Assembly (NCBI RefSeq): GCF_942548115.1 | Contig: NZ_OW824151.1 | Location: 310,001-374,000, forward strand | DNA length: 64,000 nucleotides | Direction: 5' to 3' | DNA from: Aeromicrobium sp. Leaf245 | GTDB taxonomy: Bacteria; Actinomycetota; Actinomycetes; Propionibacteriales; Nocardioidaceae | Shown here: positions 26,539 to 54,451 of the stretch, piece by piece | Numbering within the stretch: the stretch's first letter is position 1 | How the letters are laid out: every line of letters starts with the position of its first letter | Program-made: the position numbers and the translations under genes | The notes under the pieces: model-generated | What the model was told of the DNA's origin: nothing | The model's database searches: none | The model's input: the letters and a program-made list of their open reading frames with translations, nothing else

Positions 26539-27918
26539 ATGACCACCCCCACCCTCGTCCCGCGCAAGCGCCGCGGGGCCGAGCTGACGCTCACGCTGCT
26601 CGCCATCTGCATCGGCGTGGCTGCCTACTGCGCGGTCGGCCTCGGCTCGGAGGGACGCATCCCGGCGGGCGCCGTCAAGCTGGCCGGCTGCCTCGTGGTC
26701 GCCGCCATCGCGACCCACCTGTTCGTCCGCAAGGTCGCGCCCTACGCCGACCCCGTGCTCCTGCCGCTGGTCATCTGCCTCAACGGTCTCGGCCTGGCGA
26801 TGATCTACCGCATCGACCTCGGCTGCGAGGACTTGTGCCTCGGTGGCAACTACGCGCCGCTCGCGAACTCCCAGCTCATCTGGTCGGCCCTCGGGATCGT
26901 CGCGTTCGCCGTGGTGCTGCTCGTGGTGCGCGACCACCGACGTCTGCAGGCCTACACGTACACCTTCGGCTTCCTCGCCCTGGCGCTGCTCGTCCTGCCC
27001 CTGCTGCCGGTGATCGGGCAGAACATCCGCGGCGCCCGCATCTGGATCAACCTCGGGCCGTTCAGCTTCCAGCCCGGCGAGGCCGCCAAGATCTGCCTGG
27101 CCATCTTCTTCGCCGGCTACCTGGTCGTGAAGCGCGACGCGCTCGCCCTCGCGGGACGCCGCTTCGCCGGCATCGACCTGCCCCGCGGCCGCGACCTCGG
27201 GCCCATCGGCGTCGGCTGGCTCATCAGCATCGGCATCCTCGTCTTCCAGCGCGACCTCGGCTCCTCGCTGCTCTTCTTCGGCCTCTTCGTGGTCATGCTC
27301 TACATCGCCACCGAGCGCCCCGGCTGGCTCGTGGTCGGCGGCGGGCTGTTCGTGGTCGGCGCCTACTTCGGCTACCTGGCGTTCGGTCACGTCCGGGTGC
27401 GCTTCGACGCCTGGCTCGACCCGTTCGCCGACCCCGACCGCAACGGCCAGATCATCAACGGCCTGTTCGGCATGGCCTACGGCGGCATCCTCGGCACGGG
27501 CTGGGGCCAGGGAAGTCCCCAGCTCACGCCGTTCTCGTTCTCGGACTTCATCGCGGCGGCCATGGGTGAGGAGCTCGGCCTCACCGGCCTCATGGCGATC
27601 CTGGTGATCTACGGGCTCGTGGTCGAGCGCGGCATGCGCATCGCCCTCACCTGCCGCGACGCGTTCGGCAAGCTCCTCGCGGCCGGCCTCGCCGTCTCGA
27701 TGGCCCTGCAGATCTTCGTCGTCATCGGCGGCGTCACGCGGCTCATCCCGCTCACCGGCCTCACGACGCCGTTCATGGCCCAGGGCGGATCCTCGGTCGT
27801 CATGAACTGGGCCATCATCGCGCTGCTCCTGCGCATCAGCGACCAGACCCGGCGCCCCGCGCCCGAGGTGTCGCAGTTCGACCACGACGAGGAGACCCAG
27901 GTGGTGAAGCTGTCATGA
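26539..27918 (+). CDS. rodA: RodA/FtsW-type peptidoglycan glycosyltransferase (SEDS)
   Basis: A 459-residue SEDS-family membrane enzyme that polymerises lipid II into glycan strands, paired with the transpeptidase encoded next. About twelve helices are visible. Conserved SEDS segments include NIRGARIWINLGPFSFQPGE, with AAKI after it, QRDLGSSLLFFGLF, and MALQIFVVIGGVTRLIPLTG with the catalytic-region aspartate in QRDLG. A cysteine-containing loop (LGCEDLCLGG) faces outside. Its last codons overlap the pbpA start (ATGA at 27915-27918). Confidence 0.93.
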   Translation: MTTPTLVPRKRRGAELTLTLLAICIGVAAYCAVGLGSEGRIPAGAVKLAGCLVVAAIATHLFVRKVAPYADPVLLPLVICLNGLGLAMIYRIDLGCEDLCLGGNYAPLANSQLIWSALGIVAFAVVLLVVRDHRRLQAYTYTFGFLALALLVLPLLPVIGQNIRGARIWINLGPFSFQPGEAAKICLAIFFAGYLVVKRDALALAGRRFAGIDLPRGRDLGPIGVGWLISIGILVFQRDLGSSLLFFGLFVVMLYIATERPGWLVVGGGLFVVGAYFGYLAFGHVRVRFDAWLDPFADPDRNGQIINGLFGMAYGGILGTGWGQGSPQLTPFSFSDFIAAAMGEELGLTGLMAILVIYGLVVERGMRIALTCRDAFGKLLAAGLAVSMALQIFVVIGGVTRLIPLTGLTTPFMAQGGSSVVMNWAIIALLLRISDQTRRPAPEVSQFDHDEETQVVKLS

Positions 27919-29384
27919 ACAAGCCCATCCGCAACCTCGCCGTGGCGTGCCTCGTGCTGTTCGCGGCGCTGCTCATCAACGTCAACGTGGTCCAGTTCGT
28001 GCAGGCCACGGACCTCAACGACCGCCAGGGCAACAAGCGCGTCATCGACGCCGACTTCTCGCGCGACCGCGGCGCCATCCTCGTCGGCGACGAGGCGATC
28101 GCCGAGAGCGAGCCGAGCGACGACCAGTACAAGTACCAGCGCACCTACCCGCAGGCCGAGCTGTACGCACCGCTCACCGGCTACTTCTCCTACCTGTACG
28201 GCAGCGAGAACCTCGAGCGGTCGCAGAACCGCGTGCTCTCGGGCAACGACAACCGGCTGTTCGTCAGCCGCGTGATCGACCTGTTCGCCAACAAGAAGCC
28301 CCAGGGCGGCAGCGTCGAGCTGACCATCGACCCCCAGGCGCAGAAGGTGGCCGCCAGCGGGCTCGAGGCCCTCGGCAAGGACACCAAGGGCGCCGTCGCC
28401 GCGCTCGACCCGAAGACGGGCGAGGTGCTCGCCATGGTCAGTCAGCCGTCCTACGACCCCAACGCCCTGGCCAGCCACGACTTCGGCGAGGTCGCCGACG
28501 CCATGGAGAAGCTGCAGGGCGACGACGACGACCCGCTCACCAACCGGGCCACCGAGCAGATCCTGCCCCCCGGCTCCACGTTCAAGCTGGTCACCGCCGC
28601 GGCTGCGCTCGACGAGCTGGGCCTGGAGCCCGACGACGACGTCAAGGGCGGCGCGCGCCTGTCGTTCCCCGGCATCGACTACACGCTGCCCAACGAGAAC
28701 GGTGGCAACTGCGGCGGCGACGAGATCACCTTCGAGCGCGCCCTCCAGGTCTCCTGCAACGTCTCCTTCGGCGACCTCGCCGGCAAGATCGGCCAGGACA
28801 AGCTCGAGGAGCAGGCACGCAAGTTCGGCTTCGGCACCGACCCGATCGAGGGCCTGCGCAACAACGCCAGCCGCTTCACGGTCGAGGGCACCGACCTCGA
28901 GGCCCCGCAGCTCGCCCAGAGCGGCATCGGCCAGTTCGAGGTCGCGGCCACTCCGCTGCAGATGGCCATGGTCGGCGCCGGCATCGCCAACGACGGTGTC
29001 GTCATGAAGCCGCAGGTGGTCAAGACCGTGCGCTCGCCCAGCCTCCGGGTCATCGAGTCCCTCGAGCCCGAGGAGCTCAGCGAGGCCATGACCTCCGACA
29101 ACGCCGCCAAGCTGCGCGACATGATGGTCGCGACGGTCGAGTCCGGGACGGCCACCTCGGCCCAGATCCCCGGCGTCGACGTCGGCGCCAAGACCGGGAC
29201 GGCGCAGTCCACCGCGGACCGTCCCCCCTACGCCTGGTTCGTGGCCCTCGCCCCGGCCGACGACCCCAAGGTCGCCGTCGCCGTGGTCGTGGAGTCCTCG
29301 GACACCGCCCGCAACGAGATCGCCGGCGGACGTCTCGCCGGCCCCATCGCACGCTCCGTCATCGAGGCGGTGCTCGGTGAGTGA
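27915..29384 (+). CDS. pbpA: PbpA: class B penicillin-binding protein, transpeptidase
   Basis: Crosslinks peptidoglycan stems as partner of the RodA-type glycosyltransferase. The 489-residue protein has one N-terminal membrane anchor (residues 6-28), the PBP dimerisation region, and a transpeptidase domain. The catalytic motifs are all present: SxxK as STFK at 221-224, SxN as SCN at 280-282, and KTG at 426-428. The size matches mycobacterial PbpA rather than larger PbpB. The gene overlaps rodA by 4 bp; pknB follows after 27 bp with its own ribosome site. Confidence 0.94.
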   Translation: MNKPIRNLAVACLVLFAALLINVNVVQFVQATDLNDRQGNKRVIDADFSRDRGAILVGDEAIAESEPSDDQYKYQRTYPQAELYAPLTGYFSYLYGSENLERSQNRVLSGNDNRLFVSRVIDLFANKKPQGGSVELTIDPQAQKVAASGLEALGKDTKGAVAALDPKTGEVLAMVSQPSYDPNALASHDFGEVADAMEKLQGDDDDPLTNRATEQILPPGSTFKLVTAAAALDELGLEPDDDVKGGARLSFPGIDYTLPNENGGNCGGDEITFERALQVSCNVSFGDLAGKIGQDKLEEQARKFGFGTDPIEGLRNNASRFTVEGTDLEAPQLAQSGIGQFEVAATPLQMAMVGAGIANDGVVMKPQVVKTVRSPSLRVIESLEPEELSEAMTSDNAAKLRDMMVATVESGTATSAQIPGVDVGAKTGTAQSTADRPPYAWFVALAPADDPKVAVAVVVESSDTARNEIAGGRLAGPIARSVIEAVLGE

Positions 29385-29411
29385 CTTCGACCCCTCAGGG
29401 AGAGTGACACC

Positions 29412-31184
29412 ATGACCGGTACCCCCGACGAGCCCATCCTGCTCGGCGAGCGCTACGAGCTCGGCGGACTGCTGGGGCGCGGCGGCATGGCCGACGTCCG
29501 CGTGGCCCGCGACCTGCGTCTCGGCCGCACCGTGGCGATCAAGCAGCTGCGGGCCGACCTGTCCTCCGACGACACCTTCCAGGCCCGCTTCCGGCGCGAG
29601 GCCCAGTCCGCGGCCGCCCTGAACCACCCGGCCGTCGTCGCCGTCTACGACACCGGCGACTCCACCGACAAGCACGGCAACCACATCCCGTACATCGTCA
29701 TGGAGTACGTGGAGGGCCAGACGCTGCGCGAGATCCTGCGCGACGACCGCAAGATCCTGCCCGAGCGGGCGCTGTCGATCACCGCCGACGTGCTCAGCGC
29801 GCTCGACTACTCGCACCGGTCCGGCATCATCCACCGTGACATCAAGCCGGCCAACGTCATGCTGACGCCGTCGGGCCAGGTCAAGGTCATGGACTTCGGC
29901 ATCGCCCGCGCGATCGCCGACTCCTCCAGCGCCATGACGCAGACCGCGGCCGTCATCGGCACCGCGCAGTACCTCTCCCCCGAGCAGGCGCGCGGCGAGA
30001 CCGTCGACGCCCGCTCCGACATCTACTCCACCGGCTGCCTGCTCTACGAGCTGCTCACCGGGCGCCCGCCGTTCGTCGGCGACAGCCCCGTGTCGGTGGC
30101 GTACCAGCACGTCCGCGAGGAGGCCCGTCCTCCGTCGCAGCTGAACCCCGACGTGTCGCAGCCGGTCGACCACATCGTCGCCAAGGCCCTCGCCAAGCGC
30201 ACCGACGACCGCTACCAGTCGGCCGCCGACATGCGCAAGGACCTCGAGCGCGCCATCGCCGGCCAGCACGTCGACGCTCCCACGCAGGCCACCTCGGCCA
30301 TCCCGGCGGCCACCGCCGTGGCCCCTGCCGTCGCCGCCGCAGCCGCCACGGGCACCCAGCCCGCCGTGGCCGACGACGAGGAGGAGGAGAAGAAGAACAA
30401 GGCCCTGTGGTGGGCGCTCGGCATCCTCGCCGCGCTGATCATCGCCGGCCTCGCGTACTTCCTGCTCGCCGGCAACGACACCGAGGACCCGGCCCAGGTG
30501 CGCGTGCCCGACGTGGTCGGCCAGGACGCCGTGGCCGCCCAGCGCACCCTCGAGGGCGAGGGGTTCACCGTCACGACCGAGGAACGTCCCGACGCCGACG
30601 TCGAGAGCGGCAACGTCGTCTCCCAGACCCCCGAGGGCGACTCCATGGCCCCCGACGGCTCGGAGATCGAGCTGATCGTGTCGTCCGGACCCGAGCAGGT
30701 CCAGGTGCCCAACGTCGTCGGGCTGAACTACGACGAGGCCAAGGACGCCCTGGAGGGCGAGGGCCTGAAGGTCAAGAAGGAGGAACGGGCCTCCGACGAG
30801 TCCAAGGACACCGTCATCAACACCAACCCCCCGGCCGGCCAGAGCGTCGACGTCGGGGCCACCGTCACCGTGATCGTGTCCGAGGGCGAGGTCACCGTGC
30901 CCAACGTCATCGGCATGTCGCGCGACGAGGCACAGAAGGCGCTCGAGGACCTCGACCTCGAGGTCTCGGTCACCGAGGACCCGTCGTCGAGCGCCCCCGA
31001 GGACGAGGTGACCGGCCAGTCCACACCGGCCGGGCAGACCGTGCCGCCGGGGTCGTCGATCGAGATCACCGTGTCGAGCAACCCCGGCGACGACGGGGGC
31101 CCGGGCAACGGTGACGCCGACGCGAACGGCGAGGCCGACGCCGATGCCGGGGCCGACGGCGTGGCCGACGGGCTGGGCCAGTAG
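29412..31184 (+). CDS. pknB: PknB: receptor Ser/Thr kinase with three PASTA repeats
   Basis: A 590-residue transmembrane kinase that senses peptidoglycan fragments or lipid II and controls growth and division. Kinase landmarks: Lys44, HRD at 141-143, DFG at 161-163, and activation-loop Thr176/Thr178 in AMTQTAAVIGT, equivalent to the autophosphorylated pair of mycobacterial PknB. The membrane helix is at about 331-353. Three PASTA repeats start near residues 363, 430 and 495; mycobacterial PknB has four. The tail after residue 560 is an unusual Gly/Asp/Ala-rich acidic stretch. No pknA gene precedes it, unlike the classical order. Confidence 0.95.
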   Translation: MTGTPDEPILLGERYELGGLLGRGGMADVRVARDLRLGRTVAIKQLRADLSSDDTFQARFRREAQSAAALNHPAVVAVYDTGDSTDKHGNHIPYIVMEYVEGQTLREILRDDRKILPERALSITADVLSALDYSHRSGIIHRDIKPANVMLTPSGQVKVMDFGIARAIADSSSAMTQTAAVIGTAQYLSPEQARGETVDARSDIYSTGCLLYELLTGRPPFVGDSPVSVAYQHVREEARPPSQLNPDVSQPVDHIVAKALAKRTDDRYQSAADMRKDLERAIAGQHVDAPTQATSAIPAATAVAPAVAAAAATGTQPAVADDEEEEKKNKALWWALGILAALIIAGLAYFLLAGNDTEDPAQVRVPDVVGQDAVAAQRTLEGEGFTVTTEERPDADVESGNVVSQTPEGDSMAPDGSEIELIVSSGPEQVQVPNVVGLNYDEAKDALEGEGLKVKKEERASDESKDTVINTNPPAGQSVDVGATVTVIVSEGEVTVPNVIGMSRDEAQKALEDLDLEVSVTEDPSSSAPEDEVTGQSTPAGQTVPPGSSIEITVSSNPGDDGGPGNGDADANGEADADAGADGVADGLGQ

Positions 31185-52102: not shown

Positions 52103-52819
52103 TCAGCAGCCGTCGCGCACGAGGCCGGGCTGCCCGCCCTTGGTGACCTCGACGAACGTCACGCGGTCGTCGTCGGCCAGCTGGTCGGGCGTCGTGTCGA
52201 ACAGGAAGCCGATCCAGCTCGCGTCGTTGCTCTCGCGCACGAACACCCCGGTCTGGCCGTAGCCGGCATCCTGCGGGTCGCTCGCGACGGACCTCAGCTG
52301 GGCCCACGTGGTGCCGACACCGAAGCCGGACCGCGTGTGGGGGCCGGGCTGGCGGACGCCGACCGACAGGACGTCGCCGTTCTCGGCGGTCTGCAGGTCG
52401 ACGGTGTTCACGTACTCGTCGCGCCACGTGAGGGGGCGCACGGGACAGCCGTCGACGGGCGCGGGGACGTCGGCCACGAAGTAGCCGGTGGCGAGCGCCT
52501 GCGCCTTCGTCATGCCCGCCCTCACCGGACCGACCGCACCGGGGGTGATGAGGAGGTCCGACGGCGGCAGCAGACCCGCACCTGCCTCGGGCACCCCCTG
52601 ATCGCCCCCGCCTGACTCGACGGTCGGCGCTGCCGCGGCAGGCTCGGTCTCCTCCTTCTTCTCCTCCGCCGTCGGCAACGGAGTCGGGGAGGCCGACGCG
52701 CGTGGCGTGTCGCGGCCGGCGGTGTCGTCGCCACCGACGGCCGCGGCGACCGCCCCGGTGGCGACACCCAGCACCACGGCTCCGGCGAGCAGCGAGAGAG
52801 CGAGCTTGGTCTGCATCAT
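52103..52819 (-). CDS. Membrane-anchored or secreted protein of unknown function in the sigma operon
   Basis: A 238-residue protein. One N-terminal hydrophobic helix (KLALSLLAGAVVLGVATGAVA) is followed by a Pro/Ser/Glu-rich linker (residues 33-80) and an external domain. That domain has two BamE/SmpA-like turns (GAVGPVRAGMTKAQALATG and TRSGFGVGTTWAQLRSV) and two cysteines (DGCPV and the final RDGC). With only about five residues before the helix it has no cytoplasmic domain, so it cannot be a standard anti-sigma factor. It starts 34 bp after the sigma gene with AAGGA upstream and is probably cotranscribed. Confidence 0.7.
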   Translation of the reverse strand: MMQTKLALSLLAGAVVLGVATGAVAAAVGGDDTAGRDTPRASASPTPLPTAEEKKEETEPAAAAPTVESGGGDQGVPEAGAGLLPPSDLLITPGAVGPVRAGMTKAQALATGYFVADVPAPVDGCPVRPLTWRDEYVNTVDLQTAENGDVLSVGVRQPGPHTRSGFGVGTTWAQLRSVASDPQDAGYGQTGVFVRESNDASWIGFLFDTTPDQLADDDRVTFVEVTKGGQPGLVRDGC

Positions 52820-52853
52820 GAGCGTGCGTCCTTCGGTGAGGGGATCTGCACCA

Positions 52854-53438
52854 TCAGATGCCGTCCGGACCCGAAAGGTTGTCCGGACCGGGCGGTGGGT
52901 CCTGGCCGAGCCGCTCGCGCAGGTAGCGGCGGGCGGTGTGGATGCGTGCCTTGACCGTGCCGAGCGGCGCGTCGGTGAGGGCGGCGACCTCGTCGTAGGG
53001 GAGCGTCCCGAGGTCGCGCAGCACGAACGCATCGACGGCGGACGGGTGCTCGCGCTCGAGGTGCTCCAGGGCGTCGAGCAGGTCGAGCCGCGTGCCTGCG
53101 ATGACGCTCGTCGTGCGAGGGTCGGGCGCGTCGGGCACGAGGTCGGTGGAGCCCTCGTCGAAGCGACGCCGCATGGAGCGGTAGGCCTGGCGCGCCGTGT
53201 TGGACGCGACGACGGTGACCCACCCGACGAACGAGCCGCGGCCGGCGAAGGTGTGGAGCTTCTGCGCCACCACGAGGAGCGCCTCCTGCGCGGCCTCCTC
53301 GGCGTCGCCGGAGTACGGCAGGAACTTCGAGCAGCGCCGGAGCACGAGCGGACGCAGGTGCGCGAGCAGGTCCTCCATGGCGTCGGCGTCGCCGGCCTGG
53401 GCCCGCGCCACGAGCTCGAGCAGCTGGTCGTCCTCCAT
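52854..53438 (-). CDS. ECF-type RNA polymerase sigma factor
   Basis: A 194-residue sigma-70 family factor with region 2 (LVARAQAGDADAMEDLLAHL, then SGDAEEAAQEALLVVAQKL) and region 4 (DLGTLPYDEVAALTDAPLG, then TVKARIHTARRYL). No anti-sigma gene adjoins it; the next gene has no cytoplasmic domain. A Ser/Thr kinase is encoded divergently 89 bp away, which suggests control by phosphorylation, as in the EcfP/PknT pair of Vibrio (analogy only). AAGGGGGATCC precedes the ATG at 53438. Confidence 0.9.
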   Translation of the reverse strand: MEDDQLLELVARAQAGDADAMEDLLAHLRPLVLRRCSKFLPYSGDAEEAAQEALLVVAQKLHTFAGRGSFVGWVTVVASNTARQAYRSMRRRFDEGSTDLVPDAPDPRTTSVIAGTRLDLLDALEHLEREHPSAVDAFVLRDLGTLPYDEVAALTDAPLGTVKARIHTARRYLRERLGQDPPPGPDNLSGPDGI

Positions 53439-53527
53439 GGATCCCCCTTGCTCGTCTGCCGTCCACGGCCCGGCACCCCCGCCGGGCTCACCGCCGGGGG
53501 CCACGCCAGCGACCATACTGTCCCGTG

Positions 53528-54451
53528 ATGAGGCAGATCGGGAGGTACCGGCTCGACGCGGTCCAGGGGTCGGGCGCGTTCGCCACGGTGTGGCGGGGCT
53601 ACGACACCGAGCTCGAGGTGCCGGTGGCGGTGAAGGTGCTGGCGGAGAACTGGGCCCACCACGCCGACGTGCGCGAACGCTTCCTGGCCGAGGCGCGTCT
53701 GCTGCGACGGCTCGAGAGCTCCCGCGTCGTGCGGGTGCACGACATCGGCACCGAGACGTTCGACGGGACCGACCGGCCCTACTTCGTCATGGACTTCGCC
53801 GGGGGCGGCTCGCTCGACGCGGTGGCCGACGGGTCGCTCGCGCCGGCTGAAGCGGTGCGCCTGGCCGTCGAGGGTTGCCGGGCGGTGCACGTGCTGCACG
53901 CGGCGGGTGTGGTGCATCGGGACGTGAAGCCGGGCAACCTCCTGGTCGCCGACGACGGCCGCGTGCTGGTGGCCGACCTCGGCAGCGTGAAGCGGCTGGC
54001 GGAGGCCACCGGGTTCACCGTGACCACCGGGACGCCGGCGTACATGGCGCCGGAGCAGGCGTCGGGCGGACGCATCGACGCCCGCACCGACGTGTACGCG
54101 CTCGCGGTCGTGACCTTCGTCCTCGTCACGGGTGCGCTCCCCTTCGACGTGCCCGACGCCGCCGCCGTCCTGCGACGCTCCGAGGGCGAACGGCCCCGTG
54201 GTCTCGCCCGGACCCGCGGCGCGGCCGCCTCCCCCTTGCTGTCGCGGCTCGACGCCGTGCTGGACCGCGCCCTGTCACGCGACCCGGACCACCGGCACGC
54301 GTCGGCCGAGGCGCTCGCCGTCGAGCTGGAGCGGGTGACGTCGGGGCACCGCCCGCGTCGTCGGCCGGGCTGGCCGACGTGGGTGGTGGTGCCGGCCGCG
54401 CTGCTGCTGTTCGCCGCTGCTGCCACCGCCACCTGGTACGGCCTGCGCTGA
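53528..54451 (+). CDS. Ser/Thr protein kinase with C-terminal membrane helix and no sensor domain
   Basis: A 307-residue kinase. GSGAFATVW (glycine loop), Lys36 in VAVKVL, HRD at 130-132 and YMAPEQ (activation segment end) are intact. The DFG motif reads DLG (150-152), which keeps the metal-binding Asp. One membrane helix (VVVPAALLLFAAAATATWYG) ends the protein with no external domain, unlike PknB. It is divergent from the ECF sigma gene. TACTGT at 53516-53521 lies 6 bases before this ATG, so I prefer it to the GTG at 53525. Confidence 0.9.
   Translation: MRQIGRYRLDAVQGSGAFATVWRGYDTELEVPVAVKVLAENWAHHADVRERFLAEARLLRRLESSRVVRVHDIGTETFDGTDRPYFVMDFAGGGSLDAVADGSLAPAEAVRLAVEGCRAVHVLHAAGVVHRDVKPGNLLVADDGRVLVADLGSVKRLAEATGFTVTTGTPAYMAPEQASGGRIDARTDVYALAVVTFVLVTGALPFDVPDAAAVLRRSEGERPRGLARTRGAAASPLLSRLDAVLDRALSRDPDHRHASAEALAVELERVTSGHRPRRRPGWPTWVVVPAALLLFAAAATATWYGLR

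Follow-up and report, generated by a model that had tools for sequence, protein, structure and literature searches.

The window, the whole 64,000-nucleotide stretch of the Aeromicrobium sp. Leaf245 genome that was analysed, contains a gene for an ECF sigma factor lying back-to-back with the gene of a Hanks-type Ser/Thr kinase, a pairing that recurs across many actinobacterial genera together with an acidic region 2.2 and an invariant linker motif in the sigma factor. On balance we favour an ECF sigma factor that is controlled by the kinase, through a phospho-switch which is probably not at the EcfP-type site. The observation made in a preliminary description of the locus is confirmed, and the interpretation given there is partly supported.

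The sigma and kinase genes are the sole adjacent pair of their kind in the genome

All three genes of the block at 52103-54451 are present in the layout first described, that is, a sigma gene on the minus strand, a divergent kinase gene on the plus strand and, on the minus strand, the gene of a protein with an N-terminal anchor or signal. The features referred to in the text are the following.

52854..53438, minus strand: ECF sigma factor gene, 194 aa (P0001), from Pfam, TIGR02937 and orthologues
53528..54451, plus strand: Hanks-type Ser/Thr kinase gene, 307 aa (P0002), divergent from the sigma gene, from Pfam Pkinase, motifs and hydropathy
52103..52819, minus strand: third gene, external protein, 238 aa (P0003), with an N-terminal signal/anchor and a YfeY-like predicted fold; Aeromicrobium-specific
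53295-53306, minus strand: DAEE motif of region 2.2, sigma codons 45-48 (codons 45-46 at 53301..53306), acidic and intact
53106..53114, minus strand: sigma2-sigma4 linker codons 109-111 (Thr-Thr-Ser), candidate phosphorylation or docking site
53439..53527, no strand: divergent intergenic stretch of 89 bp, holding CATACTG on the kinase strand just 5' of the kinase start

Read from the sequence, AAGGGGGA directly precedes the sigma ATG at 53438; the third gene begins about 35 bp after the sigma gene, and the kinase has an alternative GTG start at 53525. P0001 matches Sigma70_r2 (E=6.1e-12, residues 25-91) and Sigma70_r4_2 (E=5.9e-08, residues 136-172) in Pfam and TIGR02937 in NCBIfam, all above their cut-offs, with sigma2 and sigma4 as its only domains, the composition of an ECF factor. 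The genome has 18 matches to sigma region 2 and eight to kinases, and by coordinates this locus is the only place where the two are adjacent, the next closest sigma-kinase pairs being about 24 kb apart; because it is the sole adjacent pair and the pairing is conserved, the association is more than chance. Elsewhere in the window (27915-31184, plus strand), a gene for a penicillin-binding-type protein is followed by that of a 590-aa kinase resembling PknB with PASTA domains, an ordinary DFG kinase whose repeats lie outside the membrane and which is separate from the sigma-paired one.

The CATACTG lies a few bases 5' of the kinase start, and ATACT is found by pattern in 16 of 17 Aeromicrobium loci; judging from the letters, it is possibly the -10 element of a leaderless kinase transcript with a housekeeping-type promoter. 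An ECF-type promoter conserved 5' of the sigma gene was not found, GGAAC being present in 32 of 110 intergenic stretches and two-part patterns in 7/110 and 0/110.

The kinase keeps its catalytic motifs and has no ectodomain

P0002 matches Pkinase (Pfam, E=1.9e-38) and carries VAVK, HRDVKPGN, DLG and APE, in other words the catalytic Lys, HRD, metal-binding DxG and APE of a Hanks-type kinase. Hydropathy gives one segment at 188-206, inside the catalytic domain, and a likely membrane segment at 284-302, beyond which five residues remain and there is no ectodomain, in agreement with the initial claim of a kinase without an external sensor. The DLG in place of DFG, also pointed out at that stage, is present in P0002 and is not peculiar to it: all 109 of the 112 family kinases that the pattern matched have DLG, a trait of the whole kinase clade, and its reading as a defect of P0002 was rejected. 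Among the 112 family kinases, VAxK is found in 111 and HRDxxPxN in every one (with Lys at the HRDxK position in 100 and Thr in 12), and an activation-segment pattern fits 88. Six of the seven other kinase matches of the genome were fetched, all but one weak match: four with DFG and with 127-266 residues after the membrane segment, and two that did not match the pattern. Beside intact sigma genes, the kinase frames of L098, L108, L120 and L134 seem broken or cut, by sequencing error or decay.

The pair is conserved across actinobacterial genera

A search for the sigma factor in 58 relatives gave two identity groups, at 50 percent or more and at 39 percent or less, and among the first 30 loci a divergent kinase was present in 28/28 of the close group and 0/2 of the distant group. 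When 116 loci were scored, drawn from wider stretches of the relatives and from 80 named loci and in part redundant (the genomes of L001-L028 for the most part recur in L031-L063, and L034/L067 and L038/L070 each stand for a single contig), 109 had a divergent kinase less than 400 bp from the sigma gene. The other seven are L064-L066, which have no kinase and at 34-36 percent identity belong to another sigma family, L109 with a gap of 434, L092 and L123 with the kinase about 1.1 kb off, and L118, which ends at a contig end. A lack of conservation of the kinase-sigma neighbourhood, which would have spoken against the interpretation, was checked for directly, and the pair proved to be conserved far beyond Aeromicrobium, with a kinase within about 1.1 kb in 112 of the 113 family loci, the 113th being L118.

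The sigma orthologues share 49-75 percent identity and occur in many actinobacteria, in genera that include Aeromicrobium, Kribbella, Streptomyces, Nocardioides, Nocardiopsis, Actinomadura, Microlunatus, Terrabacter and Thermobifida. A phylum-wide sample, assembled independently of any motif, has a sigma match at E up to 1e-40 in at least 6 of its 296 genomes, a lower bound given by scoring 11 first-look candidates per genome. Two of these matches were already known and four are new, three of the new loci having a divergent kinase; at the fourth (L178) the kinase gene stands on the opposite side, convergent with the sigma gene and with a 76-aa frame between them. Within the genus itself the pair is patchy, a close homologue being present in 14 of 37 Aeromicrobium genomes (our own included, several incomplete). 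Conservation does not extend to the three-gene block that had been proposed, the third gene being seen in Aeromicrobium only and its place being taken in other genera by unrelated proteins or by none. Since the kinase-sigma pair is so widely conserved, control by the kinase is likely, and P0002 probably acts on P0001.

Several Kribbella-type genomes (G038, G041, G043, G046, G048, G051, G054 and G056) carry two to three sigma homologues each, at 50-60 percent identity; the second copies that were fetched mostly have ectodomain-bearing kinases, and the main copy a short kinase.

Region 2.2 is acidic throughout the family and the linker carries an invariant motif

Residues were counted in 109 distinct sequences from the 113 family loci. 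Region 2.2 reads D-A-E-[ED], with Asp at position 45 in 109/109 and an acidic residue at positions 47 and 48 in 109/109. The mechanism of EcfP/PknT, to which the locus had been likened, does not carry over, for the acidic motif that is absent in EcfP is intact here; with this motif intact, charge replacement of the EcfP type is probably not the switch, and an EcfP-type mechanism was rejected.

Between sigma2 and sigma4 the family shares the linker motif DPR(T/R)TSVIAG, in a block of invariance that spans residues 106-123: D106, T110, S111, V112, A114, G115, R117 and D119 are each found in 109/109, position 116 is Ser or Thr in 109/109, and at position 109 a Thr or Ser stands in 92 sequences and an Arg in 17. 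Over the AG[TS]R..DL part of the block conservation is inflated for the 80 named loci, because this was one of the two peptide search patterns behind them. TTS was in neither pattern, and the loci from the relatives' genomes were gathered by whole-protein comparison, not by motif. The TTSV motif is absent from 20 control sigma factors (11 others of the genome and nine distant homologues; L166 was left out for want of a scorable sigma, as were six further loci of the genome), some of whose linkers may be misaligned because they score weakly, down to 10 bits. None of the 20 control genes, the nine distant homologues included, has a kinase of the sigma-paired family up to three genes away in either direction. 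In one control, L149, the family's Thr-Ser-Val is replaced by Glu-Ser-Val, so that Ser-Val alone is not special; on sequence grounds, its Glu would fit a charge replacing T110.

Anti-sigma factors and possible modes of control

As the preliminary description held, the sigma gene has a kinase gene as its partner and no recognisable anti-sigma factor stands within the block. P0003 does not have the build of a canonical neighbouring anti-sigma factor: it matches no anti-sigma family in Pfam or NCBIfam, and a hydropathy rule places its hydrophobic segment at residues 10-28, which leaves at most about nine residues in the cytoplasm. The statement that this protein has no cytoplasmic part therefore stands, up to those few residues; its description as membrane-anchored is less secure, as residues 10-28 could instead belong to a signal peptide that is cleaved off. 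Ten other sigma genes of the genome were compared: the next gene encodes, in four cases, a protein whose membrane segment comes after about 90-100 residues and, in one, an HxxxCxxC protein of 95 aa, both kinds having the look of anti-sigma factors; in three (L159, L160, L163) it encodes a protein with a hydrophobic segment at its N terminus, as at the locus of P0003. Three comparable neighbours in ten warn against over-reading the third gene.

Direct control by the kinase is the best reading because the kinase partner is conserved, no local anti-sigma factor is recognisable and the kinase motifs are kept. The membrane kinase would phosphorylate the product of the sigma gene that lies back-to-back with its own, thereby setting the activity of the sigma factor, the likeliest site being the invariant Thr-Thr-Ser at 109-111 in the sigma2-sigma4 linker; phosphorylation there may change the contact with RNA polymerase, or the linker may be the place where the kinase docks. 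We put forward a phosphorylation site in the linker tentatively, at somewhat less than an even chance. An invariant linker may equally serve docking or RNA polymerase contact without being phosphorylated, and a missing charge is not evident in it, since the adjacent D106 is already acidic.

The width of the invariant block, greater than a phosphosite requires, would suit control by binding: docked on the linker, the kinase would hold the sigma factor in the manner of a membrane anchor or anti-sigma factor and release it on a signal, with no phospho-switch on the sigma factor itself. Such a kinase has the membrane segment it would need as an anchor, and a sigma factor with an intact core-binding motif should be active unless held. 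The catalytic motifs, however, are kept in nearly all 112 kinases and would not be needed for pure sequestration, and we consider control by binding unlikely. More improbable again is an anti-sigma factor encoded elsewhere, or control by transcription only, with the kinase directed at that anti-sigma factor or at something else. Region 2.2 of the usual acidic type would accord with it, as would two mycobacterial precedents given in the available parts of their sources, namely the phosphorylation of anti-sigma factors by PknB (PMC8999054) and that of the SigH linker by PknB, which leaves RshA binding unaffected (PMC13147305); yet the kinase and sigma genes remain neighbours in 112 of 113 loci, even in the rearranged L178, and no other gene of the block is conserved.

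The third gene and the secreted neighbours of other genera

P0003 has no NCBIfam match at E up to 0.1, and its sole Pfam match, to Kinocilin (E=0.022), is below cut-off and falls within the hydrophobic segment. Its structural model has pLDDT block means of 81-98 over residues 81-230, and the nearest solved fold is that of E. coli YfeY (PDB 2qzb), with a Foldseek E of 4.6e-4, Z 9.6 and rmsd 4.7 over 131 residues at 14 percent identity. The label "BamE-like" originally given to the protein is unsupported: there is no BamE/SmpA match in Pfam or NCBIfam, YfeY leads the fold matches, and BamE is absent among those listed for the model. The external domain occurs in 19 of the 116 loci, which are the 19 Aeromicrobium loci. 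On one contig (L034:2794-2913, L067:7081-7200) the third gene is broken or misassembled, with a 42-residue fragment of the external domain.

Where other genera have a protein in the place of the third gene, it is secreted in Streptomyces, Microlunatus, Terrabacter and some others, these proteins being distantly alike, with 20-36 percent identity to that of L076 outside its Streptomyces relatives. The sole neighbour modelled, L076:6606-7352 from Streptomyces, is predicted to have the fold of the PknH ectodomain (Foldseek E=7.8e-5; Z 12.8 and rmsd 3.6 over 166 residues against PDB 4esq), with TiME next at 11.8. PF14032 (PknH_C) is over cut-off in 0 of 10 partner proteins and is touched by L092 only (E=0.0028, 18 against 27 bits), and a Pfam scan of 10 partner proteins and four kinase ectodomains gave none over cut-off, L049 and L092 having sub-cut-off matches at E about 0.0025. 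Of the 11 main-copy loci of Kribbella, eight have a secreted-type protein encoded after the kinase gene, some with a shortened call, and one, L052, has it after the sigma gene; in L092 the partner is located, by eye, between the sigma and kinase genes. Nocardiopsis, Actinomadura and part of Nocardioides have kinases with an ectodomain of about 150 aa, and in such genera the genes after the sigma gene look by eye like an undecaprenyl diphosphate synthase, a sulfotransferase and an M1-peptidase-like lipoprotein of 500 aa.

It is possible that P0003 is a receptor, and we regard as doubtful, though not far-fetched, that it feeds a signal to the ectodomain-less kinase. We give an even chance to the external protein being instead a target of the sigma factor, namely an envelope protein encoded in its operon. 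The third protein varies between genera, as targets do, and YfeY, the nearest fold, is an E. coli lipoprotein regulated by sigma-E; moreover, 12 short-kinase loci (seven of Nocardioides, four of Kribbella and one other) have no small secreted neighbour, and in 10 Nocardioides loci the sigma gene is followed by a secreted protein of about 500 aa even though the kinase has an ectodomain. A sensory part is favoured by the predicted PknH sensor-domain fold of the Streptomyces neighbour, and by the small secreted neighbour that an automatic rule finds beside 40 of 56 ectodomain-less kinases versus 2 of 49 with an ectodomain (seven kinases in which no membrane segment was found fall in neither class), a difference that on the tree is essentially one deep split.

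That split was followed by later changes, at least four per trait, and a tree-aware test of sensing in cis or in trans found two independent pairs on starred branches, with the partner trait differing in neither. Given the one deep split and the lack of a difference in these pairs, sensing in cis or in trans should be taken as a hypothesis rather than a result. The tree states leave out L118, because of the contig end, and L098, L108, L120, L133 and L134, whose kinases are broken or cut. For L032, L033, L077 and L104 the state of the kinase was assigned by hand, as was the list of 12 partnerless short-kinase loci; by default, other short-kinase loci were scored with a partner and ectodomain-kinase loci without one. 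On the same tree L081 (NZ_JAAGLV010000003.1), titled Streptomyces sp. SID13031, groups with Kribbella and looks misnamed. When profiles were compared, the ectodomain matched neither partner family, and the two partner families matched one another at a probability of 27 percent (E=0.00067, 49 columns), which was not taken as homology; against the sequences of solved structures, the partner and ectodomain profiles had no match in one search and a best E of 0.15 in the other. Taken as one model, an acidic region 2.2 that is kept, a kinase that switches the sigma factor at the linker Thr-Thr-Ser and a sensor that is either fused or a secreted protein of changing fold acting in trans would be a rather unlikely combination.

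Comparison with known systems

Kinase-controlled ECF factors as such are known, and the family of the window has probably been grouped and predicted before. New are the intact region 2.2 and the invariant linker motif that go with the kinase, and the lineage-specific secreted neighbours; no description of the linker motif or of the neighbours of this sigma family was found in the open-licence literature. In that literature, to the extent of the parts available, the experiments in which a kinase directly switches an ECF sigma factor concern members of ECF43, and a widespread actinobacterial family with region 2.2 intact and Thr/Ser invariant in the linker would reveal a second switching route. 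The linker reading gives a simple prediction at T110/S111, and in the family the same kind of sigma factor stands beside natural kinases both with a fused sensor and without one.

Such factors had been called few in the preliminary description, which is partly right: according to the available part of PMC8999054, six ECF groups are predicted to be controlled by phosphorylation, one of them, ECF283, being actinobacterial. ECF283 is listed there on account of a neighbouring kinase gene, with WP_056749340.1 of Nocardioides sp. Root190 as an example, and groups other than ECF43 may, in the same account, work differently because their region 2.2 is still acidic (PMC8999054). The sigma family of the window is probably ECF283, to which it is alike in being actinobacterial, in having a kinase gene nearby and in including Nocardioides loci, a comparison made by description only, from the available part of that source. 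A search of the open-licence literature, where the term occurs in one paper, found no experiment on ECF283.

The PknH kinase of M. tuberculosis (4esq) has a sensor ectodomain whose fold matches the one predicted for the L076 neighbour, which there is encoded by a separate gene beside an ectodomain-less kinase; unlike the PknH ectodomain, P0003 of the window has another predicted fold, that of YfeY. In common with ECF43, represented by EcfP/PknT of Vibrio parahaemolyticus and EcfK/PknS of Xanthomonas citri, the locus has a Hanks-type membrane kinase beside the ECF gene, and no adjacent anti-sigma factor is reported. ECF43, however, has lost the acidic DAED of region 2.2, which is uncharged there with a conserved Thr and becomes charged by phosphorylation, whereas the family of the window is acidic; and the ECF43 kinases, as far as the available text describes them, have various ectodomains, whereas the window kinase has none. 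In the available part of PMC13147305, EcfK is phosphorylated by PknS at T51 and at linker sites, phosphorylation of T51 or of T106 being reported as required and sufficient, and SigH of M. tuberculosis is phosphorylated in its linker with a meaning given as unknown. The invariant TTS of the window family lies in the same linker region as the EcfK sites, a likeness by region and not by residue alignment.
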